Source: Ischnura elegans
Taxonomy: Eukaryota; Arthropoda; Insecta; Odonata; Coenagrionidae
Reading direction: 5' to 3'
NCBI RefSeq assembly: GCF_921293095.1
Contig: NC_060252.1
Span: forward strand, 5,580,001-5,644,000
Length of the DNA: 64,000 nucleotides
A model generated the notes under the pieces. The model was not told the origin of the DNA, did not search any database, and was given only the letters and a program-made list of their open reading frames with translations. Of the stretch, positions 24,801 through 64,000 are shown piece after piece. The translations under genes were made by a program, and so were the position numbers. Each line of letters begins with the position of its first letter. The first letter of the stretch is position 1.

Positions 24801-27800
24801 ACCCTACCAACTATCTCTTCCCTGAAAACATGGAGTTTGATCAAATGAGCCTCGGATGGAATCGTGGGATCCAGCTCTTAAGGGCGGGTGCCGTAGGTGG
24901 CAGCGAGGTCAGCAAGGTCCTCGGGGTCCTAATCATGCAAAATGCTGTATGGAGAGGGAGGATAGATATCTTGAGTCTATCCAAAGTGAGGAGGAAGGAC
25001 AGCGGGGACTACTGGAGTAACGGGTACTGGGTTATATATATAGTGGGGGGGAGGAAAGTCAACGAGGGGTGGCTTTGGGCCCGTATTCTTAGTCGACCCT
25101 GCATATCCATCCCTGCATATCCATCCCTGCATAACAAGAGGCCCCTACATATGTTTCTCAGTCGACCCTACATGCGTGGTGGGGGGGTGATTCCGTCGTC
25201 AAGTTCTCTGAAATGACGTAGATGATGGCACATCGCCAGTTTTCCTCTCTGGTTGCGTAATGAGACCTAACTACGAGACCAAGAAAAGACGTCCAATAAA
25301 TTTCGGGTGCATTGTTAGGGCAACAGCTCAAGGTAAATAAACAATCGGTGTCGTCTGCCAGGTGGTGTCAGTACATTAATTATTGCTACAAATAACTTTA
25401 TATCGAGCCAAAAGTAGAATCAATTGTCTTTAAATTACTTCAAAAGCAGTATGTACAAGATAAAGATAAGTATAGGGCAAATATGATCATTAATGTGAGA
25501 ACTTACATTGCATCATCAAGGTTCGTCATTCACTTTTTCCTTCCGTAGTTAAGTTTATTATGTGGCAAATAGCGGCATGAAAATATGTTTTTTATGGTTG
25601 TATGTAAACGATATTGGTTTCTCAAAAGCGTACCAAGTGCCAAACATGAAAAATATTAATATATATCCGCAAAAACAAGGTGATGTATACCACTATATTA
25701 TACCATAGAGTAAGTATATTCTTATATACTTACTCTATGATTGTAATTATTACACTTAAGCCAATTTTATTATTTAATTCACTTGGTGGGTATAATGTGG
25801 TAGTATTATTACCTTTCTCCTGTGTTTCTGTACGTTTTATAATGGTTCGTGTGGATTCGTCTCCCTTAATATCCATTTTAACATAGATTATTTAAACGAA
25901 GTGATCAGCAGACGAAATTTGGCTGCCATGTTTTTGTAGGGTGTAGGGCTGGTTCGGGTACCCTACATCAAGTAGGGCCCGTTTGGTTCCAAAAATGGCC
26001 ATATGTAGGGCTTGATGTGGCGTATGTAGGACGCGATCACTTTATGTATGGGCTGATGACGTATCCAGGGTCGGTTGGCCCTACAGGGTCGACGGGCCTT
26101 AGTATTAAGCGAGAAGATGGGTAAGAGTATGGTAGTTATAAATCAGGTAAGCAATAGAATTCTTGTGGTAGAAATTAAGGCACGACCAACCAACATTGTG
26201 ATGGTTCAAGTTTACATGCCCACTAGCAATCATATGGAGGAAGAAATAGATGAGGTGTATGAACAGCTCAAGAAAATAATTAGAGAAACTCCAGGTAAGA
26301 AAAATCTGGTAGTGATGGGAGACTGGAATGCTTCAGTAGGGGAAGGGAGAGATGGAAATGAAGTAGGAGAATTTTGATTAATAATTGGGAACAACAGGGG
26401 AGAGAAAGTAGCTGAATTTTGCAGGAGAAACAAGTTATTCATAACAAACACTTGGTTTAATCATCACAAAGGGCGAAGGTACACATGGAAAAGTCCAAAG
26501 GATATTGGGAGATATCAGATAGACTACATCATGGAAAGACAGAGGTTTAGGAATAGTGTGAAAAACTCGCGTAGCTTCCCTTCAGCAGATTCAGACCACA
26601 ACTTAGTACTTATGAAATGAAACGAAAGATTCAAAAGACTGGGGACCGATTGTGTAACTTTATGATCGAGCGTAATGATCTGGTTCCCATGGCGTTTATA
26701 TCAGCTGTTCAATAACAATTGAAGGAGCGATTGCGTAACCTTATGTTCAAATGTTTTCTGGCTCTTGATCGAAAGCATCTCGTCATCAGCACATCCCTTG
26801 ACGTTACGACCATCGCCAATCATTCGCAGGTGTGGTTTGGGATTGAATGTAAATGTTAACTCTATTTCATGGTGTCGTAAGATGTCCCTTTTTGGAATAA
26901 TGGGAATTTTGCGGAAATCGAGAGAGCACTTTGCGGTATGAAGGCTAGGAAAGCAGTGGGTGTGGACAATATCCCGTGTGAGCTCCGCAATACATTTTTG
27001 TGGCTGTACAAGCACTTTCTTGCCAAATTGCAATATTTGGGTACCTTGTGGAATTTTTTATTAAAAATTATATCAACAATTTTAATGAATCTTGAATCTT
27101 CATGGAATTTTATTGGAAGCAGCGAACGCACTATAGAACTTAGCTTTAGTTATGTGGACAAAAAAAAAGTTTTCTTTATTTCCCACTTGCTTTGATTAAC
27201 CTAGGCAACTTTTTTGTAAATTCCAGAAATATACTAACGCAACGGAGTAATAAACGAAAATTAACAAAGCACGTACATAGTACTCAAATACGCTAAAATA
27301 AGGCACCACTTATGACGTCAAACACGGACGGAAAAAATCGGCCTTGTCCGCTAAAACCTAGAAGTTACATCATTTTTCAATGAAAATTTTAACAATTTGT
27401 ACGTATTCTCTCGGCGTTTGAGTAAAGAAAGTAGGGTATAAAAGTATAGCAAGAGGAAGCATGAATGAATGAAGCAAGGGTTCACTCCGAATACGAAGCC
27501 GCGGCGCGCCGGGTCGGAAGACGGTCGGCCGCCGCGGTTGACGGCAAGGTACCCACTACGTAAGCTGAAACACAAAGGCATTAGAGCGACTTATCGACTT
27601 TAAGAACGATATTATTACATGAATTTCATGACAGCGCGTCTCTTGTCGGCAGTTTTCTGAATGTACTGGCCTAAACAGCTCTGTAACCGAAACTACTCGA
27701 CTCGAAATTCGTAATGCTGGTCGAAACACTCGCGTCGAATACCAACTACTCGACTCGACTTGAATTTTCGAGTACTCGCACATCCCTAGGCACAATTAAT

Positions 27801-43803: not shown

Positions 43804-46800
43804 CTGAAAGATGACACAGCAATTAGCACTAGAGTCAATGGAGAAAGGAACGCTAGCAATCTCTCCGGCATCACACAAGGACTTACTTGGAATAGAGCCT
43901 TCCCCTTGCCTGGGTAGTCATCTGAGATGTCCTCCTTCCATTTCATGAAGGCATCTTCTTCAACTATTTCCAGGTCATATAGGTAGACAAACCAACGCAG
44001 AAGCATTCCTACAAAAAAGTAAGAAAATTCATGTCAAAATGATTGAAGTGCAACAAAAGAAAGAAAAAACCTATGCAGCTGCCTCATAACACTACCTTTG
44101 GGAAATTGCTTGGAATAGCAATACACTTGGAGGGCATACACTGCCACAACCTGCAGATTTATTTCGTTTTGCAGGAAAGCCTGAAGAACAGGGTTGAACT
44201 TCTCCAAAAGATATTTCTCCTTCTCCTGGAGAGCCTTGTCAGGTAAGCACCCAGGTTCAGCCCCTTCAGGGAGAGTAGTCTCCTGTAAAATGACACGAGT
44301 CACATAGCAGAAATAAAGAAAGCTAAATGCATGAACATGGATTGTTTGACAGACCGAAGCAGTTCGTATCAATAAAAAGTATTAAAGCATGGGAAACTAG
44401 AAGGGAGGCAAAATTATGCAAGGAAAAGGAGCATCTATCTCCAAATCCAGCCTGGTATTTGTGAAGTACCAATTAAATTCTTGAACATAACGGAAACTAT
44501 AAACACTCATCTACAAGAATCAACTACTGAAAATTCAGAGACTTCAAACAAGGGAATTTTTAAAAACTATTCATGCTTCTAGTAATTCAAACCTAAAAGT
44601 AATCAAAAAGTTGCACTACATTTCAAAAATTTCTTCGTAAAGTCGGGTATCTTTCGCATGCTATTCTAAAGATAAAAAACATAAACAGAATTCTGATGAT
44701 ATTTCGTGAAATGGCATTGCTGAAGGTGTACATTTCGTACATGAATTAAATGGCACTCAAACAGAAAGAAGCAAGTTTATTTATTAATATTTTTCAAAGC
44801 TGTTTCATGGTGTCTAAATAACTTTTTTGAAAAATCTCTCCAATGAAGGTTGAACTACAGCTTTCTCTTGATAAAGGAGCCTATAGCAGGCAGTGTATTT
44901 CTAAAATTAAAATCACCTAGATTAAAATTAATCAAACTCCCGCAATCGTAAACGTTGGTGTTGTCCACAAATACTGCCATAGGAAACAGTTGAATGTTGG
45001 GATGAGCAATAAACATTGCAGAAATTTTAAAAAATTACAGACAGATGTTCGAAAGCCCGAATTTCTCCTACGAAAGTCAAATACATTAAAGGTGTCAATT
45101 TGGAACGAACAAAAGTGTGAATTGTACGAAAGTCGAGTGTACTCGAGTCGAGGACTGCCTGTAGTGGATAGGATCTGGAAGGAAGGAATACTGAGAAAGT
45201 GATTGGGAGAGGATGCATGAACCAGGGATTGATTTGTCCGATGAATGACTGATTAATAATCAGCTCTTAAATGCAATTAATTAATTTAAATATATAACCG
45301 CGACCCAGCCCAGTTTCATTCTTAGGGAACTTTATGAATCCTTGACAACCACTTGCATCTTTCTCACCTGAGTAATGTACTTCACAAGAACAGTCACTAG
45401 TGCATTAATGAATCCAGGAGCCTGGTGATGTGAGGGATCCAGATTCTCCTTGATCCACTTGTAGAATGCATTTGGATTCGGATTAGCCTGCAATATAAAT
45501 CTAAAATTAATATACAAGGAAAAGGTCAAATCAATATCCTTCCTCTGGATTTAAGAGTTAATTATTTTGAGTAAAATTATTCTAACAGTTGGCAGAAGAA
45601 TTATGTAAAAACTGTGCTTGAATTAATAGCAAATGGTTGCTTACTACAGGCAACACTAAACTTTTTCTGGCACCTCACAGAAGACGTGAACAATTTACCT
45701 TTGAAGTTGCTCACAGAAGATAACTACAAAAGAAATATTAAGGAAAATCCATCGAACAAGGAACAATTGCTGTTGGGTAGCCAGCATACTGCACTGCCAG
45801 AGGATGGCCATAAATTGTGATGGAAGGGGGTATCTAATTGCCCAATCAGTTTTGTCGGCATTTACACAAATCGTCTACCACAGCTAACTATTAATCCTGT
45901 GACCGAGCATGAATCATGAGGATCCAAAAACGTAGGCTTATTCTCAAATTTGTTTATAAGAATGCTGATGAGTGGCATTACTCATCACTGTGGTATGATT
46001 ATAGAATAATGGAAGCATAACAGCTGATGCAATGAGGAGACACCATCAATGAAAATTGTTTAATTTCAGCAATGAGGCTACCAAAATCTTGAGGTCAATC
46101 ACTTAAGACTTCTATTGTGGAATATTTCAATCTTGCCATGTTCACAGTGTTGTAATTCACATTAATTTCCAGAGGAAATAATTTCCCAGATATCAAACCA
46201 CAAACCTCTTGAATGAGCCACTCCATAGACTACTATGCTTACCAGGTCAAAGTAATCACCCACATAGACAAAGGTCTGCGGTTTGTTCACAGGAATTTTT
46301 TTCCATAGCAATTAATGTTTATCACTTCACTGATGTAGTAATTGCGGACTATTTATGCTTCCAAAGAAAAGGAGGCAAGGGCAAAAAATTTCTACCGGCA
46401 GTACATAACTCGAATCTTAATTTGGTTTACCAGAAATACTTCTCCAGCTGTATCATATGATTTCCATGCCTTCAAATAAGAAGCTGACTGGGAATGGTGA
46501 GAAAAAGCCTCTTGGATATACCTGTTATGTAAGGATCTCGATTTTCCCTTGCTAAATTTTATGACCAGCAACTGGTATTTCACCCACGAGTAAATGCTTA
46601 TAATATTGAAGTCCCTATATGCCTTACAGAAAAGGTCTCCAATCGGGCAGGAGTGCACCTCCTCTGGAGTACGGAAACACAGGTAGAGGTTACTGGCTCT
46701 TCTCCACAGGCCCCTGGCAGTTCGCCTACCCACCTCATAGTTCCCCATTTCTGGAGGTCAACTGCTGCTCGAGTCACCTATTAGCCCATAAAGTGTCTAA

Positions 46801-49800
46801 CAATGACTTGCGACAATTGGTATTATACTTCTATTTGATTGAAATATTAGTAATATGCACGCAATTCAGAAAAGAATGAGACCAAAAATTACTTATTTCT
46901 GACTTTATTCAAGAATTATAAGAAAAGGAAATTGATTAAAAAATACAATGAAGACTTAGCTTTCTAGTGAAACTCGATATCCTCGCAGCCGAGCTTCTCG
47001 GCAGTTCATGCAGCATTTTTTCCAATAACAGGATATCAGGTTACAATTTAAAAGTTATAATATTAGTCTCTGCTACAGAACTTAGAAATGAGTGGGCGAG
47101 TTGCCTTCTCTTTAGGACAAAAGTTTCATGGTGCAGTCATATGCTCATGTTTCATGTTATCACGTCATATCCCTCTGCCATTGGCTCTGCATACGCAGTG
47201 CACAATTAGGGGTCGACGGGGCCCCGAAATTTTCGGGTCGGGTCATCGTCCTGACCCGAACTTCGGGTCGGGCCATTTCAAATCTCGGGTCAAAATCGGG
47301 TCGGGTCGAAAATCGCGAGAATTTTATCCATCGCGAAAAATATTTCACTTTTCTTTTTTATAACTTCTATTGTCCCCAGCAACATTTTTAATTGATTATG
47401 GCCATCATTTGTGACAGCGCTCTCAAAATATAACATATTTCATACATTTTATGGCATAAAAAGTCGTAAAATACAAGCCAGCGAATATTTCCTTTGTAAA
47501 CGGCGATCTTAAGAAAACCTAAGTAACGTAAAAGTTAGACATTATTTTATATTAGAATGCAATAATCAGAACTAGCTGACATTAGAAGGCTAGCATCAAT
47601 TAAGGGCGCTAAAGGCAGAAAGTAGTTTCTAATATCTACGCAGTAGCGAGGAGTGGCGACAGGCAGTCGTGACGACTGCCGGCCCAATTACATTTCAGTC
47701 TGACTCCGTCACTGAACTATGAAATAGTAGGGACTATAAAGAAATATTCACGGGTGATTGGTATTGACTTCCATATTTTCAGCTGAACATTATATATGCG
47801 TTATTGGGCTGAAATATTATTTCTTTCCGATCGATAATAACTTGACAAATGGGATACGGCATATATTCCATTTCTTATCCATTTTAGCACCTGCGGTAAC
47901 GAATAAAACTTCTCGGCTAGGCACCAGGTTAGGCTGAAAAGTTTTTAAAGCCTAACCTCATTAAGGTTTGTGAAGGTAAATGATGATATTTATATCATTC
48001 TTTTAGTTTATGGAGACATAGATGAAGGAGACTCCCGACCTGTTCTTAAAAGGCCGTTGCAGATGCCAATGCTGTTGTCAATGCGACTAAGACTTTATCT
48101 CAGCAGCTGATATCTTAGAAATGTTTAACATAGATTTAAAAGGATTGTTTTTGGCTTGAGTGGAATCAATATTAACAGCTTTATTTTTAAGTTCATTAAA
48201 ATTATATATGTGAGGATAAGTTTATAAAAATAGCCATGCTTTCCATTTTTGCCTATTTTAAGCGGCTATCTGCGAAGTCTAGAATACGGAACGAGTATTT
48301 TCCTTCCATCTACCGGTTCATATAACAACTCTTGATGTTACCCCTGCCCAAATGCGTTCCACTTCCCTTGTTTATAAAACTCCAGAAGGGTTCGGTGTAT
48401 TTAATTTTCCATACGGAAAGCATAAAAAACGAAACCAAATTACTGTCCACACGTCGACTTACTGGAAGATTATTTAACCCATTACTTCAATCAGCCAATC
48501 ATGATCACTGCTAAAATTACTTAAATAAACCCACGTTTATCAATCTTCCAGTTTTTAATTGTCTCGGCCGGTTTTAACGTCATAGTCCAGTCGTTTTAAC
48601 AGGTCTGGAAAGAAACCTGATGTGCTGCAGTTGTAATTGAAAGGATTTCTTCGAATTAATGGAGAGAACGCTCTGTGGGGTTCTTGGTGCAATTGGAGTG
48701 CCCTGGGTGAACAAACTGGAAGAGAAAGGAGAGAGCAAGGAATATTTGCAAGGTTACGGTGCGGGGAAGAGAGCGGAAATGGGTGGAGTAGTGTGTGTGG
48801 CAGTTAAGATTGGCCTTTACAGAGATTTATGGCCATAAAACCAATCAGAACCATGCGGTGTACATTGGGGTACAGACTTTTTTTTAGCAAATAGGAACCA
48901 TATTCCTGAATATCCGACTTTCTTTGCCCTTTCTTCCAGTTTACTCTCCCAACGAATCCCAAGTGCACCCTGAACCCTTCTAGAACGTTCTCCTTCCCAT
49001 GTCCCCGCACCCTCAAGAGAATTGTATAGTTAAGACCTTGCTTTACAATTTTTATTGCCAGACGTCCTTAGAATGACGTGAGTGTGGCATTATCCAACTT
49101 AGTATTGTATTTATTTGTGTTATTTTTGTAGTAGTCTGTTTCAGATATGCATTTGCATTTCTGTTTTGAGTGAATACACTTAAACTAATCTACCTTTAGG
49201 TATAGATTGTTTATTTTTATTTCCTTTTATTGGCCTTCATAAACATATTTTTTGACATTTCTGCTTCAAGAAAAAAATTATGATAAAATTATTGGATACG
49301 ACCTGACCCGAGACCCGTCCCGACCCGAGGGTCAAAAAAATACCAGACCCGAACCTTAAAATTTTGACCCGTCCACCCCTATGCACAATAGCATCAATTC
49401 TGAACTTCACCTCATACAAGTGGTTCCATACTTTCCAGGGTGGGTTGACTTCCAACAAGCCAGTTTTTCTGTGTGGTTATAATAAAGTCAGGTTTCATTA
49501 TATTTGTTTCATTTCTATTCATCTTCGGACCATGGCCCTTATGAAGAAACAAGTGAGAACTTTAAAAGATGGACTGAAAATAATTGAAGATGAAGAAAAG
49601 AATCCGGGAAAGAAGCACGTGAATATTGGAGAACGCCTCTGGTTTTCCGCTAGCACATGACAGTTGGGGTAGGGGTTGAGGGAGCTACCTGGTGAAAACA
49701 AGAAGTCTGATGAAGCCGAGGATCAGATGTGGGTGCCACTGTCGATTAACACAACATTTTTCACGCTTTATACTATTGCCTCAATTATATTAAAAATATA

Positions 49801-52800
49801 TTTATTAGAAATGAACATTTCATATAGACTATTTTCGGCCTTAGTGATCCATCGCACAACCAATCACTGCACCAGCGAAAGCAGTTGTTTTAGGCATAAC
49901 ATGCACATTGCTCTATTAAATACGTGAACTTGAAAATTCGTTTGATGGATCAGAATTCTTACATCAGACATCCATAATAGCACTGCAAATGCGAATATGG
50001 AGTGCAAACATTTTTTAGCTACGTGACTTATTCCTTAAGGATATTTGAAAAAATGTTAGTCAAATCAACAATGTCCCCTAGGTATTTCCATTAAGTACTG
50101 AAACTCTTGTGATCAGCTAAAATCTTGTTAGAATGATTTCGTGAATATCATAATTACACACTAAAATCATGTGTTTCCTAGGATATAGGCAACCCAGTCA
50201 AACATTCCTGCATTGATCGTTTCCTTGCATTCACCATTTTTTCGTCCATCCCCTTGAAAAACGATAGGTCGAGGTTCCACTGTAATTCTCTAAATGGATA
50301 TACTACCGCTAACAAACCAATCCAGCTCAAAAACATGTTAACAGTAGGTTTCATGGACATTATTAGCTCTACCCCCGGAAGGATGGTAATTTGCCATAGC
50401 GAGGGTTTATTCAGGCACTGTGTGGTACCGTTTCCACTGTACTTAGTCACTCTTTCCCCCTGCATACACCCTATAACACAAAGATTCCTCCTGCCACATT
50501 GAGAGGCTGAAAAGGCAAATAATTGTGGGAAGTCAACCCTTACAACCTCCATAGAAACAAAATATCTATCTTTGAAAGACAAGTGTGTATTCGAAAAAAG
50601 AATAATTTTAAGTCCAAAAGCTACCAAAAAATTCACTGCACAAGAAGAATGTATTAAATTCTACACAGCCATACTCTCTAATAGCTCTGAACCAAGTATA
50701 TGAGTTAATGGGATGCCTAACAAACCTTCCCTCTCACTAACTTCATAGCAGTGTTGAAGAAACTCTGGCAACAGAAACAAGTACATGGAATCACAATATC
50801 TTAGATACTTAAACCAAATGCCCATCTCCTTTCCCAGTCACAGCATAAGATTCAGTCCACAGGTATCTTCAGGATCTTCAAAGGTGACAAAATTAAGTAA
50901 ATACTACCTCAATGCACGGCTCAAAAATGTAATTACTAAGTTAACAATTTTCTCCAAAAAACGTACATTACATCGTGCAACATTATGTGTTTAGACCAGT
51001 CAGGTCATTTTCCTATAAAAGCAAAATAATGGGGATTTAGCCACTCAGACACAATCATGCCATCATTGGTGTAGCACACCATCTGGTGGAAACCGCGAAT
51101 GATCACTGAGGTATCATCACAGTGGCCTATGTGATCTTCATCTTGGGGTCTCTATACAGGATACTTTTTTGAAGAAACATCACAATTGACAATAACATTA
51201 ATGGTGAACTTCTAAAATTGATAAGTAATTACTGAGATTGAATTACATAGTTATTTTAACCATTGATGGTTTTTTCCAATCCCGAAAAACTCACCTTTAA
51301 TTGTTTCCAAAGTTCAGCCTGGATTCTTAGAAGTGGGAAGAGGAAAGTAAGTCCCTTATCTTCTAAAATATCCGCCAGCTTTTCTTTAGTCTTATCAATT
51401 TCTGGCAGCATGTTCAAGAGATTGACCTAAATAAATAATTACACATCAGGCCATAAATAATTATACATATAAAATACGGTAACCGAACTAAGAATTCAAT
51501 ATTTCAGACGACCATTACCTTACTGTCATTGAACAACTTCGTAAGTTCAGCTTTTCCTTGTGTCTTATTCAACTGCTGTAGCACCAGGAGAAAAAGGGGG
51601 TAATGTGCTCCATTCTCACACAATTCGGCCACTTCAGCAAGGGACATGATCTCTCCAATGATGGCATTTGCTGCAAACCCTTAAAATAAAAATACGTAAG
51701 TGATATAACGTAAATACATTGTAGTAATTGAGTGTTTCAACTTCCCACATTATATAATTCATACAAGATAAGTCAAGACAAAATAAATAATCTATTAATA
51801 TTTAAAATATATATTCCACAATTAATATTTTTTGAAGAACATAATTTAATAATTTCTTAAATAAACTAAGATTTTTTTGATTGATTTGATGATCCATCTA
51901 AGCTGCCAAAAAATTTTTCATTTTTTTATTTCATTTACTGAGTTCATACTACCCAATGCTGCTCATTATGTAACAGAATGCGGAAAGGCCACTCAGACAC
52001 AATCAATGCCGTCATTGGTGGAAGCCATCTGGTGGAAACCGCGAATGATCACAGAGGTATCATCACTGTGGCCAATAACATTTACACAATTACCCTTGCA
52101 AGGTTCAAACATATACCGTATTTATCTGAATATCGTCCCCCCTTTTCTTTACAAAAATGCCCATGGTAAAAGTAAAGGGGGAGGGCAATTAATCAAGGGG
52201 GAGGGTTAAATTTTCAAAAGCATTTTTTCATATTTTTCCCAAAACTGAAGCCTCAAAATTAGACTATATTCAGAGAAATATGGTACCAGTTGTAACTACA
52301 TCAAGGATTACAAAAATTCTTATGTAAATCAAGAGGAGAACCTACCTGCAACATAGGAGAAGATGCGTGGAATGGCACGCTCCTTGTCAGCCATTTGGCC
52401 CAACAACTCCTTGAATGCTCCAATGAACTGAGTAGTTGTATAGAGGCCTTCTTTCTTGAGCTTAGAAAGGAGGCTGCTAACTGATTCACGATCAGTATCT
52501 GCAAAGACCCACAAATTAATGCGTACCAATATGTATACATTATACCTCCATTAGTTAGTTTTGATTATCAGATATCAAAAGTTCCACAGTGTACAGCTTT
52601 ATTTAACACTCTGGAAGCTTTCATTACAGGTAGAAATGTTAGTGTTGTATAGCCCATTTTCTTTCAAAGTAACAGAATGAGAAAAAGCCACTCAGACACA
52701 ATCACAGCCATCATTGGTGTAGGACACCATCTGGTGGAAACCGCGAATGATCATAGAAGTATCATCACAGAGGCCAATTTGATCTTACACCTGGGGCTTG

Positions 52801-55800
52801 ACAACTATCTTTAAGACTTTTTTAAATGCATATTTAAATAACAGCCAACAACGATGCAAGTTTATAAAAACTTCGAAGTTCCAAATAATTACAGGGTCAC
52901 ACACTACTACATAAAATGGGCAGTGAGTGTTACCCTGAATGAAAAAAACCTTGATAGCGTCAAAAACTTACCACTCTTCTCCAAAGTCTTGTTCATCATG
53001 GAGGTCAACACAGCAGACATGAACCGGTCAGGTACTTTCTGCTCTTTGAAGGAATTCACAGCTTCATCCATATTAGAGTTATTGAGGAAATCGTCTAACA
53101 TGGAGTCAATCTTCTTCAACACTTCATCCTTACTTGGCCCCTATAAACAAAATAAAATGTTAGAATCTAATTTGAAATTATGAAATGGCAGATTAGCATA
53201 ACATGATTCAGACATCAACAAGCCATCATTAGGAAACTTCCGGTGGAAACCGCGAATGCTGAAAATATTTCTCATCATAATTTTATAAAGCAGAGAGATA
53301 AAAATCATGAGTGGAATAATACCTTATCCTTTTTCCCTCCCTTATTCTTGTCCAAAGAGCCTTGCTTTATGAGAATGGGCTGCTCCTTGGCATGAAGAAT
53401 TGGAGGAGGTGGCTTGGGTGCCAGCAAACTAGGCTGCGTTGGAGGCAGCAAAGGCTCTAAGGCTGGCTGTCTGCCTGCTGGGAAACATAAGAGAGAAATT
53501 AAAAGAAAGTTTTTAACTGGACACTTGCTGTGACAATACTTAAATAAGACCAATTGGTTCTAATTAAAGAAATGCCAAAGTTAACACAAACACACGAGAT
53601 GGAATCCTTATCAACCCATATAGATTACATGTATCGGTGACTGCATGAAAAATAAAAAAAATTAACAATAATACAAAAAAAATATAATTTTCAACCTTTA
53701 TGAGGCTTCTACGTTAGCACAAATTGCATTGGAAACAATTCAGATGCCACTCAGACAATCATAGCCATCATTGGTGTAGGACACCATCTGGTGGAAACCG
53801 CGAATGATCACATTAATTATCATCATTGTGGCCAATTTCACATTCTGAGGGTTGCCTATGCGAAATCCATTCCATCATGAAAAATCATGATTAAGGCTCC
53901 AAGAAATTTAAATTTTTAAATTATGCATGAGAAAATGGTAACTGTCAATAATCAAGCATTTCTTCAAATCTACAAGACTGATGGAATAATGAATAATAAT
54001 CAAATGAATGAAAAAAATATAAATAAGATACCCAGAATTCGCTATGAAATATATTCTGCATGAGGACCCTTAAATCCTACAGAAATCACAAGAAAAATAG
54101 AAAACATCAGAACTCACCACCTAATGAAAGAGAAGTCTTGGGTAGAGAATTGGGAGTCTTCGGCTTGAAATTGGCAGCTGGTCTGAGGGAAACTTCTTCA
54201 AGGTTAGCGTGACTTCCCTGCTGAGCAGCCAACATCATTTTATTCTTGAATCTGGGAGGCAAATCATTTTTGCCACTCACTGAAAGACAACAATCGATGC
54301 AATCACACAGCGACAAACCAAGACAAATAACATGCAACAATAGTAAATGTAATGTTTTCATGTCATACCATGAAATTACCTCATGCAAAAAGAACTGCAT
54401 AGCAAAAACGTGTATGTATAATACAAGTTTTTGCTGTTTAAGCAAATGATTTGACAGATATGAAATTGCTAGACTGACAAAGGGATCCTTCAACAGGTTC
54501 ACTGGCCTGAACACCTGCAGTACCTCCCCACTCATTGAGAATTGCTAGAGGTCCGTGAATTTCGCGAGACGCGATATCGCGAAATAACGCGAAATAACAC
54601 AAAATAACGAAAAATCGGTTATTTAACACGAAATTTCGCGTTATTTGCGATTTTAGGTGGATTAGCGAAATAATCATATGTAATGAGTCGTAATCTATTA
54701 AAACATAAGCCTTCATTGTTTAACGCTGCCGACGTTCATTTGCTCTATCTCATTACGATTCCCAGGTCAATAGGCTCGTTTAGTCTCGCGCATCCGCGTA
54801 ATATAGCGCACTGTGGTGCTTTATCCGCCAGAATTTGCCGTTAAATTTATCACTGCCTCTTTCTTACCTGAAGAATTAGATATTATGAATTAAAAATGCG
54901 CGGAAAGAAATTTAGCGCGGCCGCGGAGGAGCGGAAATACAAGCTCACACGCCCGATACGCATCAATGCCGAGCAGTAATTCCGGCGACTCACCGCGGCG
55001 CATTAGACTGCATTATTGGATAACTTGTTGCAGGAATACCTTGAGTATGGGTCTAATGTAACTCGAAGTATACAAATATAAGGTAGTGGGGATTTTGCCG
55101 TTTGCTGATTGTATTAGCTGAGACTACATACTTGAACCATTCGTATACCTTGAACCAATATAAATTGAACCACTTCTTTCATGTTGTTTTATCAGAAATT
55201 TTGTGCTATCGAAATTTTGTTAAATGTCAAGTAAAATGCTTAATAAAAGTATAGGTATTAATGAAACAAGTACCATAAAATAATAAAACGCCTATACACC
55301 GGGAAAAATGTAACATTATAATAACACCGCCAAGATTTTCTATAACACCGAAATCACATGGTTTTAAAACGAATTTTAGCAAAAAATAAAACCACTTTCA
55401 CGGACCTCTAAGAATTGCTGATAAAATATTCCCAGCTATTCCTCTTAAGTTCACCGAATATCCTGTGTGCACAAACAACTGTTTGAATTTTTTTCTAAGA
55501 CTAAAGCTTCCTCATTAGCTGAAAGAGAAGTGTTCAATCATATTTTGGTTATGAAAACCACACTTGAATTCTGCATCTCCTTTTCAAAGGCTAGTTATAA
55601 CACTATTGTGTTCATAGATACAAGGAAATAATTTGTTACTCGCTCATAATAAATATGTTAAATAATACCCATGTTGAATGCATTGTGCCAGGCAAATACT
55701 GAGAAACAGTTGATTGTGGCATTGTTCAATTATAAGCATTATAAAAATGCCCAAGGATTACCACCCACTATCCAAGAGCCAGAACTTTTAGCACAAAAAT

Positions 55801-58800
55801 TAGGCAAACTGTGTTTCAAAGGAAAACATTGAAGTGGGAATTACAAGTCAATGATCCTGTACGAGGAACATGAAAAAATTAAGAAATAAGATTTTAAAAT
55901 TTTGGCTTTAATATATGGCTAATTTGACTAAGTATTAAAATCACCAAATCTCTCTGAAAAAGAAACACTTCATCCCACTAAAAATATCCATGAGAAAGTG
56001 GGTAGTATGAGATACTACATTTGTGTCCAAGTGACTAAGCCAACCGGAACAGTGTACTGTAAATTACCGACAAGAAGAATTCAGATGCCACTCAGACAAT
56101 CACAGCCATCATTGATGTAGGACATCATCTGGTGGAAACCGCGAATGATCACATTAATTATCATCATTGTGGCAAATAACACATTAAGAGGATTGCCCAT
56201 GCAATGGACAAGCAAATAAAATGGAACTTTGTTATTACGCTCCATTTACGTTTTACACGTAAACGTATGTACGTTTTAAATAGTGATGCTTTCCTGGGTA
56301 GCATGCGCATTAACTTGTCATGATGCAACCTGCAAGTCGTTTCCTCATACTTCTTAACTTTTGATTTCATAAGTTGTGTTAGTATTACCAGCCATAAACC
56401 TCCTTACTTTCATCCCACACTTCTCTTTCTACAACCATGATGCATCTAAAGGCATTTCTCAATATGAGGGGTACATGCGTCAATTGCTTGACCAATGCAG
56501 TGGGAGCAGACGATGCTTAAGATCTAATGAACTCAAAAATGCTTGATTAACTAATGTTTAATAATACGTTAGTAAAATTCCTCACATCATGTAATTGCTT
56601 TGGAAAATATGCAGAAAATGTAAGTAAAAGTTTTAAAAAACAACAACTCTGTTGGGTACCGCGTGAAACTCCCTCTTGGTGTTTAAGTTTACATTCCACT
56701 TACTATGTCCACTATAAGTAAGAAGACATATCAAGAAGCATAACAAAACTTAATTGTTGAACCCTCACTCTGGATACCTTTTAATTTTTACATCAAAATT
56801 CCTCGGCGGGTGAAAGCTCGTCACACCATATCTTGGGATCGTATATTTCCCATGTTATTAAAAGAAAGACAAAAGACAAACAGAATTCAGATATTTCGCG
56901 CAATAGCATTCCTTAAGGCATACATTAATAAAATAGCATTAAATGGAAAAACACAATTAGAAAGAAGAACTTACTAGCTTTATTGAAAGCTGTTTGATGA
57001 TGTCTAGACAACTGTTTTGAAAATCTCTCCAATGAAGGCTTAACTACAGCTTCCTTCTTTTGTTGAAGGAGCCTATAGCAGGCACTGTATCTCTCAAATA
57101 AATCACCTATATTAAAGTCAACATACAACAATTCCCTTGATTGTATACATTCGTATTGTTCGCATATACTGCCATTTGAAACAGTTGAATGTTGGGATGC
57201 GCAGAAAACACCGCGGAAATGTCAAAAAATTACAGACAATCGCCCCACAGTCCAAATTTGGCGTACGAAAGTCAAGTAAAAGGTGTCAATTTGGAACGCA
57301 AAAGTGTACGCAAGTCGAGGACCGCCTGTATGTGTATTAGGGATACAAATGCAGTCACATTAAATGTATATACTCACTGTTGTTAAAACCTTGCTGCTGG
57401 TTCTGGTTTTGCTTATTATGGTTAGAGAATCCCTGTCGACCAGATCCATAATTAGGAGGGCCACCAAACTGCTGGCCACGACGATATGATGATTGGAAGC
57501 CATTTCCATACCTTGAAAGAAACAACACCATATTTCACCCTTATGCATTCCAATACAACAACCTAACTTTGCAGTGGAGGAGGAAATCAGACATTTCATT
57601 GCCATCACTGAGAAACTCTCCGGTGGAAACCGCGAATGAAATATAGCAAATCATCATGTTGAATGGCAGAAGATACAGCTTAATACCAGATGAGTAAAAA
57701 TGAACAAGTAATGATGATGGATGAAGAAGCTCAAATGCATAATTGAAAAACATTATTCATTAATGAACATTCTCTTTGCAGTTTTGACCTCCGTAACAAT
57801 GGCATGTTTCCTCAAAAGCTTGGACACTCATTTATTTGAAATAAACATTGTTTTAGTCTTACACCAGCCCATCATTATCCTCTATTACTCAACATGAATA
57901 CAGAATTTCATGATAAAAAAGCACACTTTTTTTCAAGCGTATCCCCTGTTCCACGAAAAAGAGACCAGCACTTAACTACAATCACAACAAATGTAGAAAT
58001 AGCATTGATACCTAAAGTGATGTAATGACATTTTCTTTTAGTACTCATTAAATTATCACTTTAAGGCAAAAGTACATTTAAAGCAAATATTTTTCCAATT
58101 TATGTAGTATATTCCCAGCAAAATAGGTTTTTCATGTAAATATCATGGGTGGTCAATAACCTGAAGCCATTAGCATATAAATGCATTTCTGTTATAATGA
58201 GGAGCAATATGAACCTAGAAGCAAAGCTACAGAAAGCTCCAAATGACAATTGATGGGGGGAAAACTAAATTACCTAGGAAAATATGAAATACCAGCAGTT
58301 TCAGGTCAGGTTCCAGCAAAGATAATACGGTCTGACAAAGTACATCCTATCGACCATAGCAGGTTGTTTGCAACTAACGAGACAATTTATGTAACAATGT
58401 CCTAGGTTTACAGGAATTACATGGATTTAATTATATGTTGACCCTTCCCTCAGTTAGCCCTCAAAAAGTCCTTGAATTACAAGGGTTACTCAATTTTTCC
58501 CACCACACCATACTCTTCTCCTATAGCAGCAGGATATATTAAAGGAAGAACTTGGCTGCACATGATACTCCAGAAAATGTTGCTTTAACAACGACATGTG
58601 TCGTGCAAACATAATTGCATAGTTAATACTGCAATACCTTATCTGACTAACATGTAGATAGCTTACAAAATGAATCAACTAGAAAGAAAAGTTGACTTTG
58701 GTACAATATGATCAATTTTCACTGAACATGGAATAATTGTCACTAATAACCAGGATATAAGCATGAGTAAAGAGAGGCACTTAGGACCAGACAATTCGAG

Positions 58801-59514
58801 GAGGGAGTGCAGATCACCAATTGTCATACCCATAGAAATCCTGAGAGGAGACCATTCCAGAACCAGGTCCCAAGTTGATAACACCAGGATTAACTGGGCC
58901 GCCATCCCAAACTTCACGGCGAGTACTCATGGGATAGCAGAACAGATCTACATGGTTGCCACCACCGCCCAGGTGGCCCACGCCCCCCATACCATCACGT
59001 CCTCCCATCCCCCCACCTCCCATTCGTTGGCCTTGGGATCCCATGCTGGACATGTAGCCACCTCGATCTCGGTGATCATCACGGATCTGCAAACAAAGGG
59101 GAAAGCACGCATTAAAGCAAACAACACCACCACACAATGCATAGAAACTACCACACACTTCAAACATGCATTCACCTCATTGATGAGCATTGGTCCCTCA
59201 ATGTTGGTAGCCTTGCGGGGAATCCAGCCATTCATGCGCAGCTCAATGGTGTCACGCAGCATAAAACGAATGCGAGTAGGCAGACTTGGATTCTGAGCAA
59301 GTTTGCTCAGACGAGCAAAATACTGGCTCACCAAGCTCTTGCCCCTTTCTGACTCCAGAATCTTGCCACAGGTCTTCATAATCTGACAGAGGCATTCAAG
59401 ATCTTCGGCCATGTCCTTCACCTCACCTTTCTTTTTCTTGTCCAGCAATGCCATACAGCACTCGTGCAAGATACTCTCCCGTAGGATTTCCAGCTTTCCA
59501 AGTTCTCCAATAAA
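43732..59514 (-). CDS. eIF4G2: eIF4G2 / NAT1 / DAP5, eIF4G-like translation factor (14 exons seen, 5' end outside)
   Basis: This cytosolic scaffold resembles the C-terminal two thirds of eIF4G, binds eIF4A and eIF3 but not eIF4E, and drives cap-independent or alternative initiation (family knowledge). I joined 14 minus-strand exons, all GT-AG and all phase-consistent, giving 2,295 nt (764 codons plus stop). Domains in order: the last third of MIF4G (exon 59176-59514), a Gly/Asn/Gln-rich linker (five exons), MA3 (53140 to 51519), and W2/eIF5C-like (51426 to 43732), ending in an acidic tail. The closest comparison I have is human EIF4G2; stretches such as ALYALQV, GKGKALFQV and WLTWL match it. 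The earlier exons (N-terminus and most of MIF4G) must lie beyond 64,000. Introns host at least seven snoRNA-like units. Confidence 0.95.
43887..44008 (-). CDS. eIF4G2: eIF4G2 exon m: W2 domain
   Basis: The acceptor is TTTGTAG|GAATGC and the donor TTCCAA|GTAAGT. It encodes GMLLRWFVYLYDLEIVEEDA and PGKGKALFQ, near-identical to the human W2 segment, which binds eIF2-beta and eIF3-type partners. Confidence 0.95.
44096..44282 (-). CDS. eIF4G2: eIF4G2 exon l: W2 domain, middle
   Basis: The acceptor is TTTTACAG|GAGACT and the donor CCCAAAG|GTAGTG. It encodes EKEKYLLEKFNPVLQAFLQN and VVAVYALQVYCYSKQFPK; human has KFLHDHVDLQVSALYALQVH. Confidence 0.95.
44646..45163 (-). repeat. duplicate of the exon d region (block 2), in intron k-l
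   Basis: About 520 bp in the same orientation as 56,838-57,330, with around 75 to 80 percent identity by eye. It includes the exon d copy, flanking intron and a TCGAGGACTGCCTGTA end. The end of similarity at CCTGTA coincides in both copies with a Tigger/pogo-like terminus. Confidence 0.75.
44785..44916 (-). pseudogene. decayed copy of eIF4G2 exon d
   Basis: The minus strand matches exon d almost throughout, for example CCTGCTATAGGCTCCTT and CTTCATTGGAGAGATTTT. A changed start (GATTTTAATTTTAG), small indels and an in-frame TAG after about 20 codons destroy the reading frame. The donor region is also altered. It lies between exons k and l, where it could only act as a poison exon if spliced in. 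Confidence 0.75.
45368..45487 (-). CDS. eIF4G2: eIF4G2 exon k: start of W2 domain
   Basis: The acceptor is TATTGCAG|GCTAAT and the donor ACTCAG|GTGAGA. It encodes NAFYKWIKENLDPSHHQAPG and FINALVTVLVKYITQ. The preceding intron is 5.8 kb and contains a 2.2-kb hAT element. Confidence 0.95.
45488..47198 (-). other. eIF4G2 intron j-k, 3' part: no firm feature
   Basis: AT-rich intron. A 118-codon open frame at 46,392-46,748 (minus) has no recognisable domain and is probably repeat-derived. Confidence 0.4.
47207..49381. mobile_element. 2.2-kb hAT transposon with 8-bp TSD TGCACAAT
   Basis: TGCACAAT at 47199-47206 and 49382-49389 flanks inverted ends TAGGGGTCGACGGG and (complement) TAGGGGTGGACGGG. 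Both subterminal regions are packed with GGGTCGGG/CCCGACCC repeats, as hAT subterminal binding sites often are. No transposase frame is readable, so it is non-autonomous. It lies in eIF4G2 intron j-k. Confidence 0.88.
49390..51039 (-). other. eIF4G2 intron j-k, 5' part: no feature seen
   Basis: AT-rich intron between the hAT element and snoRNA copy 1. The open frame at 50,178-50,636 on the minus strand has no recognisable domain. Confidence 0.45.
51040..51126 (-). ncRNA. box C/D snoRNA, eIF4G2 intron j-k (copy 1)
   Basis: On the minus strand: terminal stem GCCAC (51122-51126) with GTGGC (51040-51044), C box GTGATGA (51114-51120), guide CATTCGCGGTTTCCACC (51085-51101), D' box CAGA (51082-51085), a C'-like TGATGGC, and D box CTGA (51045-51048). 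All canonical elements are present. It sits within about 170 bp of the upstream exon j. Confidence 0.85.
51295..51426 (-). CDS. eIF4G2: eIF4G2 exon j: MA3-W2 connector
   Basis: The acceptor is TTATTTAG|GTCAAT and the donor TTAAAG|GTGAGT. It encodes VNLLNMLPEIDKTKEKLADI and GLTFLFPLLRIQAELWKQLK, matching VNMQKMLPEIDQNKDRMLEI in human. Confidence 0.95.
51519..51679 (-). CDS. eIF4G2: eIF4G2 exon i: end of MA3 domain
   Basis: The acceptor is TTTTAAG|GGTTTG and the donor AGTAAG|GTAATG. It encodes FAANAIIGEIMSLAEVAEL, HYPLFLLVLQQL and LTKLFNDSK; human has HFPLFLLCLQQL and LTELFQQSK. Confidence 0.95.
51987..52073 (-). ncRNA. box C/D snoRNA, eIF4G2 intron h-i (copy 2)
   Basis: A 6-bp terminal stem GGCCAC/GTGGCC, C box GTGATGA (52060-52066), guide 52031-52047, D' CAGA (52028-52031), C' TGACGGC and D box CTGA (51993-51996). 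The spacing is the same as copy 1. Confidence 0.88.
52346..52498 (-). CDS. eIF4G2: eIF4G2 exon h: MA3 domain, middle
   Basis: The acceptor is CTTTGCAG|ATACTG and the donor GTTGCAG|GTAGGT. It encodes DTDRESVSSLLSKLKKEG, TTQFIGAFKELLGQM and IPRIFSYVA, corresponding to the second MA3 helical repeat. Confidence 0.95.
52687..52774 (-). ncRNA. box C/D snoRNA, eIF4G2 intron g-h (copy 3)
   Basis: Stem GCCTC/GTGGC with one mismatch, C box GTGATGA (52762-52768), guide 52733-52749, D' CAGA (52730-52733), C' TGATGGC and D box CTGA (52692-52695). It lies 189 bp upstream of the exon h acceptor. Confidence 0.85.
52972..53140 (-). CDS. eIF4G2: eIF4G2 exon g: start of MA3 domain
   Basis: The acceptor is TTTATAG|GGGCCA and the donor GAGTG|GTAAGT. 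It encodes PSKDEVLKKIDSMLDDFLNN and MDEAVNSFKEQKVPDRFM, corresponding to SKEELLKLTE...NEAVNGVREM in human MA3. Confidence 0.95.
53197..53288 (-). ncRNA. box C/D snoRNA-like unit, eIF4G2 intron f-g (copy 4, divergent)
   Basis: C box ATGATGA (53272-53278), invariant guide block at 53242-53258, CGGA at the D' position, C' TGATGGC and D box CTGA (53208-53211). The terminal stem is weak (ATAA/TTAT at best). The intron is only 182 nt, so the unit fills half of it, about 56 nt from the 3' splice site. Confidence 0.72.
53323..53477 (-). CDS. eIF4G2: eIF4G2 exon f: Pro-rich linker, tandem NAGNAG acceptor
   Basis: The acceptor reads CCCAGCAG|GCAG, with two CAGs 3 nt apart, so the start may be 53477 or 53474 with gain or loss of one Ala. 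The donor is GATAAG|GTATTA. It encodes QPALEPLLPPTQPSLLAPKP and ends in the Lys-rich NKGGKKDK. Confidence 0.9.
53746..53832 (-). ncRNA. box C/D snoRNA, eIF4G2 intron e-f (copy 5)
   Basis: Stem GCCAC/GTGGC, C box ATGATGA (53820-53826), guide 53790-53806, D' CAGA (53787-53790), C' TGATGGC and D box CTGA (53751-53754). Very close to copy 6, which suggests a recent duplication. Confidence 0.88.
54118..54279 (-). CDS. eIF4G2: eIF4G2 exon e: PPRF / SLRPA segment
   Basis: The acceptor is CTTTCAG|TGAGTG and the donor TTAGGTG|GTGAGT. It encodes SGKNDLPPRFKNKMM and EEVSLRPAANFKPK. Human eIF4G2 has the counterpart PPRF...EISLRPAQSF in the same place, which anchors the linker alignment. Confidence 0.92.
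54546..55410. mobile_element. 865-bp hAT element with 8-bp TSD AGAATTGC
   Basis: AGAATTGC at 54538-54545 and 55411-55418 flanks perfect 14-bp inverted ends TAGAGGTCCGTGAA. GCGAAATAACGCGAAATAAC-type subterminal repeats follow the left end. No ORF. It lies in eIF4G2 intron d-e. Confidence 0.9.
55419..56086 (-). other. eIF4G2 intron d-e: no feature seen
   Basis: AT-rich intron between the hAT element and snoRNA copy 6. No exon or repeat was found. Confidence 0.5.
56087..56173 (-). ncRNA. box C/D snoRNA, eIF4G2 intron d-e (copy 6)
   Basis: Stem GCCAC/GTGGC, C box ATGATGA (56161-56167), guide 56131-56147, D' CAGA (56128-56131), C' TGATGGC and D box CTGA (56092-56095). The same intron also carries an 865-bp hAT element between this unit and exon e. 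Confidence 0.88.
56838..57330 (-). repeat. duplicate of the exon d region (block 1, source copy)
   Basis: It contains the open exon d with its flanks and ends in TCGAGGACCGCCTGTA, the complement of TACAGGCGGTCCTCGA. That is the style of Tigger/pogo transposon ends. No matching inverted end was found on the other side. Confidence 0.7.
56975..57106 (-). CDS. eIF4G2: eIF4G2 exon d: 44-codon phase-symmetric exon, possible cassette
   Basis: The acceptor ATATAG|GTGATT is weak; the donor GCTA|GTAAGT is strong. It encodes DLFERYSACYRLLQQKKEAV and RFSKQLSRHHQTAFNKA. It is 132 nt with phase 1 at both sides, so skipping would join c to e in frame (NN-M-SGKNDLPPRF). I do not recognise this segment in human eIF4G2. 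A decayed duplicate lies at about 44,785-44,916. Confidence 0.65.
57378..57511 (-). CDS. eIF4G2: eIF4G2 exon c: Asn/Gln-rich linker
   Basis: The acceptor is TTTCAAG|GTATGG and the donor AACAACA|GTGAGT. It encodes YGNGFQSSYRRGQQFGGPPN and later NQNQQQGFNN. This is prion-like low-complexity sequence, in phase with exons b and d. Confidence 0.88.
57580..57665 (-). ncRNA. box C/D snoRNA-like unit, eIF4G2 intron b-c (copy 7, divergent)
   Basis: C box ATGATGA (57651-57657), invariant guide block 57622-57638, CGGA at D', C' TGATGGC and D box CTGA (57587-57590). The terminal stem is not convincing. It is about 70 nt upstream of the exon c acceptor, the preferred distance for splicing-coupled snoRNA processing. 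Confidence 0.7.
58830..59086 (-). CDS. eIF4G2: eIF4G2 exon b: Gly/Met-rich linker
   Basis: The acceptor is TTTGCAG|ATCCGT and the donor TATGG|GTATGA. It encodes IRDDHRDRGGYMSSM followed by a Gly/Met-rich stretch and VDLFCYPMSTRREVWDGGPV. It is the low-complexity linker after MIF4G. Two bases left at its 3' end pair with one from exon c to make Gly. Confidence 0.88.
59176..59514 (-). CDS. eIF4G2: eIF4G2 exon a: end of MIF4G domain
   Basis: The acceptor is TTTTCAG|TTTATT and the donor AATGAG|GTGAAT. The exon opens FIGELGKLEILRESILHECC and includes DMAEDLECLCQIMKTCG, SQYFARL, LPTRIRFMLRDTIELR and GWIPRKA. These align with the final helices of the eIF4G2 MIF4G domain, the eIF4A-binding module. 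Confidence 0.95.
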
Positions 59515-62500: not shown

Positions 62501-63894
62501 GCCAAGTGATTATGCATTAAAAATGTTTTACTTAGTTCATTTTTTCACTAATTATTTTTCATAGTCATCATTCGGGGATATATTAATATACACAAGTGCA
62601 GTTTTTTCACTCGGCCATTCTTCAATACTAACAAAGGATTGAATAAGCCTTCGTAAATTTAGAAACAATTACTTTCCTATTTATCATAACTGACATTTTC
62701 ACCCTCAAAATTGTGTTGTAACCTAACAAATTCCCTGATAAAACATTGCAGAACCTTAAATTTTACTGCCACAGCACCTGAAACCTGGCAAAATCCCAAA
62801 TCCAGAATCACGAAAGACCCAACTGTACCAGATTCAGGGTGTTCAACCGTAGAATCATTGAGCCCAATTTTGCTCTTACTGAGTGCTACTGAGCTAAGTT
62901 GAAGATTTTCTTTTCTTCCTGTCCAGCATTCATTCAGGAGAAGGATTCATTATTGTATTGGAAAAACTTAGTAAGCTGTCAAAAATCTACTCTGTAAGCA
63001 TCCTTATCACCGATAAACAATACTTTGGGCACATCCTATAATGATCAAGGGAAGTGTGGACCTTGGGCTATCCACACAGCAGAGAGCATCATTTTTCCAA
63101 GCTGAATTAAGTTTTAACCAAAATATAGTTGGGATTATTGAAGTTCTAGAGAGAATTGACATGTAAATAAGTAAAAAGTCAAGAGAAATAAAAGTCACAC
63201 AAGACTAATGCATCACTTAGCTAAAATGATAGGCTAAAATGTGAAAATAACCGGGTGAATCTTACATATCCAATCTGAATGCATTCACAAATTTAGACTT
63301 TCATACAAATGAATACCCCCACTAACCTCCTACTTATTAACAATATTAAAACCATATGGTACATAAGTCACAAATAGCTTTTAATTTTCAGGTATCTAAA
63401 TGATATTAAAAAGATAAATATGAATGAAGAAAATTTATAATGCATACTTAAGTAAGTTTAGTACTGAGACAACTCTCCAAAAATTTAACTCCCTGGCTAT
63501 ATTTTCTGAATGTCATCATAAAATGTGAGCTTAGGAACCCCTTACATTTCCACGAGGATTAAGGATGCAATCACGGTGATGCAAAATGCATATTATTCTG
63601 TTTCTCTTCGTGTTAAACTCTGGAAGTTTCCTAATCCCTATGAATCAAAGCTCAAAATCCCAGCAAAAGCAGGAGAAATCAGCACATAAATAATAAAAAT
63701 CAACTACATGACAAAGGTTGACAAGAAAAACCTAATCACACTTAGAAAAGTTGCTTAATACACCACCTATTCATGCCCAAATACCATCACCATCAAAATT
63801 TCCAAGTTAGGAAAAAAACAAACTTAGTAATATTTCCTGGCTCCAAATGAATTCTCGAGACAAAATTATCAACCAGTTACAACTGCTTGTAACT
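59515..63894 (-). other. large upstream eIF4G2 intron; only one retroelement end seen
   Basis: I searched the minus strand for the rest of MIF4G and found no matching exon, so this is one long intron (over 4.4 kb). Besides the hammerhead-like end near 60 kb and the decayed snoRNA copy at its far end, nothing is recognisable. Confidence 0.5.
60008..60058 (-). ncRNA. hammerhead-like Penelope terminus, degenerate
   Basis: The minus strand reads CAGATGA in place of CTGATGA, T, GGCTC-TGT-GAGCT (stem II), GAAA, C-GT-G (stem III with A-U), GTC, then ATACG. The stem II, GAAA and short stem III layout equals the 17,041 motif. Stem I does not pair and one core base is changed, so it is a remnant. Confidence 0.45.
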
Positions 63895-63977
63895 GGCTAC
63901 TCAGATGTGCCATAGCTATCACAAAGGAAAATCTGTAGGAAACCATGAATGATTGTGTGAATTACTGACATAACGCC
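63895..63977 (-). ncRNA. decayed copy of the eIF4G2 intronic C/D unit (copy 8)
   Basis: D box CTGA (63901-63904) and CAGA at D' (63932-63935) are kept. The guide equivalent (63935-63951) reads CATTCATGGTTTCCTAC on the minus strand, with several changes. The C box is lost (ATGTCAG at the expected place). It lies in the long intron upstream of exon a and is probably a pseudogene. Confidence 0.45.
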
Positions 63978-64000
63978 AAATTACACTGGCAAAAGCTTTG

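Follow-up and report, generated by a model that had tools for sequence, protein, structure and literature searches.

Seven box C/D small nucleolar RNA (snoRNA) units lie in introns of the translation factor gene eIF4G2 of the damselfly Ischnura elegans. They are located in a 64,000-nucleotide (nt) stretch of contig NC_060252.1 (assembly GCF_921293095.1, positions 5,580,001 to 5,644,000), here called the window; positions below are counted from its first letter. With high confidence, the units are identified as paralogous U14 (SNORD14) box C/D snoRNAs of a short type with domain A only, predicted to be released from introns of the eIF4G2 pre-mRNA. All are 80–86 nt long and sense to eIF4G2. Over 13 nt, each is perfectly complementary to the same site of 18S ribosomal RNA (rRNA), nucleotides ~81–93. 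The second antisense element of U14, domain B, is absent (0/7 units) and is carried by a separate tandem array on another contig.

The units, c1 to c7, are on the minus strand. Copy c1 (57583..57662) is 80 nt long and lies in intron b-c, 71 nt from the 3′ splice site, with D′ CGGA and without a terminal stem. Copies c2 (56088..56172, intron c-d) and c3 (53747..53831, intron d-e) are both 85 nt long and have terminal stems. Copy c4 (53204..53283, 80 nt, intron e-f) resembles c1 in having D′ CGGA and no terminal stem; its distance from the 3′ splice site is 63 nt. Terminal stems are present in c5 (52688..52773, 86 nt, intron f-g; one mismatch), c6 (51989..52071, 83 nt, intron g-h) and c7 (51041..51125, 85 nt, intron i-j). 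Box C is [AG]TGATGA, box C′ TGAYGGC and box D CTGA in 7/7 units; D′ is degenerate throughout, CAGA in five and CGGA in two instead of CTGA. Boxes C, D and C′/D′, as expected of a box C/D snoRNA, are thus present in all seven. The terminal stem is of the GCCAC/GTGGC type. Either this stem (5/7) or a favourable intron position (the other two) is found in every unit. Pairwise identity among whole units is 66–96%. The 80-nt flanks on either side have an average identity of 51%, compared with 49% in 498 control pairs, and exceed the control 95% level in 4/21 pairs per side; recent duplication may have left some similarity in the flanks of a few unit pairs. A sequence-only reading of the window had proposed seven one-per-intron box C/D units on the coding strand of eIF4G2, with these box sequences and an invariant 17-nt block; the exon model and the sequences bear this out. 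Its unit length of about 87 nt was too long, and its intron lettering (b-c, d-e, e-f, f-g, g-h, h-i, j-k) is replaced by that given here. The terminal stems that it described in five units are present, but that of c5 is imperfect.

The 17-nt block GGTGGAAACCGCGAATG is identical in all seven units. Seven exact occurrences are found in the window (chance expectation 0.11 at up to three mismatches), and no further place in the window at up to three mismatches. In the whole assembly (1.72 Gb, 110 contigs) the exact block likewise occurs seven times, always in these units. It is located on the minus strand at 57622..57638 in c1, where 13 of the 17 nt pair with 18S rRNA, and in c2–c7 at 56131-56147, 53790-53806, 53242-53258, 52733-52749, 52031-52047 and 51085-51101. 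The block corresponds to the element CAUUCGCAGUUuCCaCC of the Rfam model RF00016 (SNORD14), with A changed to G at one position. The partner site in the genome's own 18S rRNA is GAAACCGCGAATG in 13/13 loci looked at, these loci having been found by a pattern that contains the site. Human 18S rRNA and U14 presumably have the other standard pair at the substituted position, so the U14 RNA and its 18S target appear to have changed together there. A complement of about 13 nt to the 5′ part of 18S rRNA, as in U14 domain A, is present in 7/7 units. Complements of at least 13 nt to any part of 18S rRNA occur in 3 of 2100 shuffled units. Among 261 overlapping windows of the host gene outside the copies, no complement is longer than 11 nt.

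At Rfam gathering scores the units have no match. At permissive settings RF00016 is the best family for 7/7, with 26.0–40.9 bits and expectation values (E) of 5.6e-6 to 0.067; in the local search c1 to c7 score 26.0, 40.9, 40.4, 34, 37.4, 35.2 and 35.7 bits. A covariance search, proposed with the sequence-only reading, therefore names the family in every case, but below its gathering cut-off. The guide that had seemed unfamiliar is U14 domain A, and a new guide family is rejected for this reason.

The host gene eIF4G2 occupies 43887..59514 on the minus strand in a 12-exon model (exons a–l) and continues beyond both ends. Exons a–f are at 59514-59176, 59086-58830, 57511-57378, 54279-54118, 53474-53323 and 53140-52972; exons g–l are at 52498-52346, 51679-51519, 51426-51295, 45487-45368, 44282-44096 and 44008-43887. 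A single open frame runs across all 12 exons, and the introns of the model are GT...AG. For the C-terminal part there is a PDB match, 3l6a (human eIF4G2; E=7.4e-70), and Pfam domains MIF4G, MA3 and W2 are found on pieces of the protein, in agreement with the host named earlier. The closest homologue among the matches listed is that of the dragonfly Ladona fulva, with 90% identity (174 found, 120 listed). Between exons a and l there are 11 introns, and seven of these (b-c, c-d, d-e, e-f, f-g, g-h and i-j) have exactly one U14 copy each. Copy-free introns are one of 1,085 nt and three of 87–92 nt; the latter have no room for a unit beside the splice signals. Two similar frames resembling fragments of pogo/Tigger-type transposons were seen by eye at 56925-57221 and ~44800-45000, in introns c-d and j-k. 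Frames resembling the endonuclease part of a non-long-terminal-repeat retroelement were seen by eye at 26060-26620.

The absence of domain B is evident from alignment and from pattern search. RF00016 carries CCUUCCUUGGAUG before box D. This element is deleted, or mostly so, in the four RF00016 alignments that span it, and the spacer sequences give the same result for the other three units. The C′–D spacers are 9–11 nt long and variable; their complement to 18S rRNA is at most 8 nt, even counted with box C′. Domain B followed by box D has no place in the window within three mismatches. An unmodified two-domain U14 is rejected on these grounds.

In the genome, CTTCCTTGGATG-N(0,2)-CTGA has seven places, six of them on contig C1 at 131.492–131.494 Mb. 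These six form an array of tandem C/D-like units (L039:5954-7588, minus strand, period ~329 nt). Five units are arranged head-to-tail with a period of 329 nt (93% matches), and a diverged sixth is located 317 nt further on. All six have a C box (TTGATGA or GTGATGA), a C′ box resembling ATGATGA or AATGATC, a D box CTGA and a 13-nt complement of 18S ACATCCAAGGAAG. The G five nt upstream of D is calculated to pair with the 18S C that is the counterpart of human C462/yeast C414, positions tabulated in PMC3511168. TTTTCAG ends 63–65 nt downstream of the D box in 6/6 units. Terminal stems of the array units are inconsistent, and one copy is a weak RF00016 match (24.7 bits). The array adjoins apparent mariner transposase fragments, seen by eye. 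In the 45 nt before the seventh place, on C12 (L038), box C is absent, and the place is taken as chance.

Both exact 13-nt targets are kept in 4/13 18S loci (L014, L015, L019, L020). Of the remaining loci, three run into N, and six are partial or dispersed copies in which the sequence breaks off before the domain B place or is altered there. Several dispersed copies (L008–L013) are broken or altered in the first few hundred bases; that at L008 leads into an apparent retroelement endonuclease frame, seen by eye. Since intact 18S rRNA retains the domain B target and the eIF4G2 units have no domain B, the guide for this target is predicted to sit on another RNA.

In published work, domain A of U14, or U14 pairing, is required for the processing of 18S rRNA, and domain B is a methylation guide (PMC6315972, PMC7277114); domain A is described as the pre-rRNA chaperone element (PMC6315972). 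Splicing and debranching would free each unit from its eIF4G2 intron, and the C/D core proteins would protect it. The 13-nt domain A would then pair with the 5′ domain of 18S rRNA in the early pre-ribosome and chaperone the folding on which the early cleavages yielding 18S rRNA depend. Because of the published roles of the two domains, methylation of the C462 type would not be guided by the seven units and is assigned provisionally to the six tandem domain B units on C1. Boxes, complementarity, host, copy number, the lack of domain B and the separate domain B array are seen in the sequence; expression, processing and chaperone role of the seven units are inferred. The earlier suggestion that rRNA-modification dose is coupled to transcription of a translation factor is not supported, domain A being a chaperone element and the methylation-guiding domain B missing from 7/7 units.

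Copies c1 and c4, which have no stem, are the two nearest to the 3′ splice site; the five stemmed copies are 189–5553 nt away. The chance of this coincidence is 1 in 21. According to PMC10234308, some C/D snoRNAs rely on a distance of 40–50 nt to the branch point, and at greater distances a terminal stem often makes up for it; expressed human C/D snoRNAs are mainly located farther from the branch point than this. By eye, TTCTAAC in intron e-f places a branch point ~44 nt from c4; no clear branch point for c1 was seen when its intron was inspected in the same way. The position of the stemless units near the 3′ splice site argues that c1 and c4 may be working copies. Between D′ and C′, 7/7 units have a predicted small hairpin with differing bases (stems GGTGT/ACACC, GATGT/ACATC and GAGA/TCTC, and shorter weak forms); it is weak in c4 and c6. 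Its pair cells are paired in 86.6%, compared with 79.2% in shuffled alignments (reached by 0/500) and 28–49% with partners slid; its covariation score is 0.216 against 0.125 (reached by 3/500 shuffles). Derived from seven related sequences, these statistics count as support for the hairpin, not proof. Extended external stems were rejected, being as stable in 5/200 shuffles for c3 and c6 and in 22–153/200 for the other five.

Several results weigh against the identification as domain-A-only U14. The gathering cut-off of RF00016, 64 bits, is not reached by any of the seven units. For c1, E is 0.067 locally and 3.79 genome-wide, and chance matches at E<=10 also occur in 9/14 control genomes. The terminal stem is absent from c1 and c4. 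Two measures of the hairpin are weak: 40/500 shuffles equal it in pairs changed on both sides, and 185/500 in pair types. Human U14 forms hybrids that could potentially guide methylation at 18S-83, as listed in a CLASH/FLASH study (PMC12645875), so that a methylation role of domain A itself is conceivable. The units are filed as domain-A-only U14; a strict Rfam threshold or a two-domain definition would exclude them from U14.

Methylation at the 18S-83 counterpart is the basis of another explanation, in which the units are true guides and domain A directs, via D′, 2′-O-methylation of an 18S adenosine that corresponds to human A83 and is paired 5 nt upstream of D′. The D′+5 position does fall on the first A of GAAACC, and the human hybrids also speak for this explanation. 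However, the helix begins one pair before the target nucleotide, two of the three guide bases beside D′ are unpaired, D′ is degenerate in 7/7 units, and PMC12645875 counts U14 among snoRNAs with essential pairing without methylation. This explanation is regarded as improbable. Somewhat better placed, and nevertheless unlikely, is the explanation that the set is for the most part inert, made up of U14 duplicates or pseudogenes across neighbouring introns, with only one or two expressed. It accounts for a decayed eighth copy and for c1 and c4 without terminal stems, but 7/7 units have kept all boxes and the 17-nt block although they differ by up to a third, and the stemless copies are close to the 3′ splice site (63 and 71 nt), a geometry said to spare the stem (PMC10234308). 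Repeated insertion of a mobile element with a U14-like tail would explain copies distributed over the introns of one gene, and is considered hardly credible: the exact 17-mer is nowhere else in 1.72 Gb, flanks are on average like control pairs, and all copies have the same sense, one per intron, in a single gene. The dispersal in unrelated loci that would mark a transposon, raised with the sequence-only reading, is thus not seen. A set of intronic, domain-A-only U14 copies is preferred to these alternatives.

The decayed eighth copy is located at 63891..63982 (minus strand), in the intron that precedes exon a; the exon before that intron, read by eye, ends near 65.17 kb. The copy was found with a model derived from c1–c7, the seven-copy model (24.9 bits, E 0.0016). 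The C box is lost, the 17-nt block has four changes, the longest 18S complement is 8 nt, and the D box is retained; by these features the element is classified as a decayed U14 copy.

The pattern TGATGA-N(6,34)-CATTCGCGGTTT has nine places in the genome: the seven copies, one on C4 and one on C10. A reversed-pattern control has none, and ~1.5 chance matches are expected (equal bases, this genome size); the C4 and C10 places are accordingly treated as chance and not as extra U14 copies. Counting against chance origin, the C4 element (L044:1489-1556) combines CATTCGCGGTTT with a D box and a 4-bp stem, only ~53 nt apart, and its score in the seven-copy model is 24.3 bits (E 0.0009). It is probably a very short C/D-like element due to chance. 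The C10 place (L052) scores 15.8 bits. Genome-wide, RF00016 at E<=10 has 11 matches (120 of 32,365 candidates scored): six window copies, one array copy and four others (E 1.07–8.27); c7 is not among the matches listed. Matches near E 1–10 mean little, the same search having given matches at E<=10 in 9/14 control genomes. The four others, with at best 18.0 bits (L029) in the seven-copy model, were rejected. Also taken as chance with this model are 50119-50165 (15.0 bits, E 0.62) and three matches in other fetched loci (11.9–14.6 bits, E 0.61 to 2.9).

A gene with U14 in several of its introns is already known, and U14 without domain B has been reported for the fly. Additions made here are the eIF4G2 host, the unusual number of seven copies and a clear map of both U14 halves. 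On a slight balance of probability, U14 in this insect lineage has been fully split into two independently amplified sets: a chaperone half, as seven eIF4G2-intron copies with domain A only, and a methylation half, as six tandem copies on another contig with domain B only. Such a natural separation of functions would tie chaperone dose to eIF4G2 transcription, and would possibly be ancestral to winged insects, since domain B is reported to be missing in the fly too. With the two antisense parts on different RNAs, each is removable alone. Besides hsc70, eIF4G2 is another protein gene with U14 in several introns. Live and decayed copies together form a set for studying how snoRNA copies are kept.

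No published report of U14 in eIF4G2/NAT1 was found in a literature search of open-licence papers. In the fly, the U14 genes take their name from band 30E, near which NAT1, the fly eIF4G2, may lie. Tandem snoRNA arrays in snoRNA host genes are a general class. The domain B units on C1 resemble them in their head-to-tail repeats and in TTTTCAG after the D box in 6/6; their host transcript is putative. Human EIF4G2 carries SNORD97 in intron 13, which helps to methylate the wobble C of elongator tRNA-Met (PMC6601510); the host gene is the same as that of the seven units, and the RNA is different. Vertebrate U14 has three copies in hsc70 introns, one per intron (PMC7277114), and chicken HSPA8 has U14 in introns 5, 6 and 8 (PMC2653536). 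The eIF4G2 set is similar in that several introns of a single protein gene have one copy each and in having the same domain A, but differs in host, in its seven copies and in the absence of domain B. Its units are 80–86 nt long, compared with a length of 111 for the Rfam U14 model. Vertebrate and yeast U14 have domain B; fly U14 is reported to be without it, and a different C/D snoRNA is predicted to serve the domain B nucleotide there (PMC6315972, citing Yuan et al. 2003). Domain B is therefore not required of an insect U14, and in carrying domain A only the eIF4G2 units are like the U14 of the fly.

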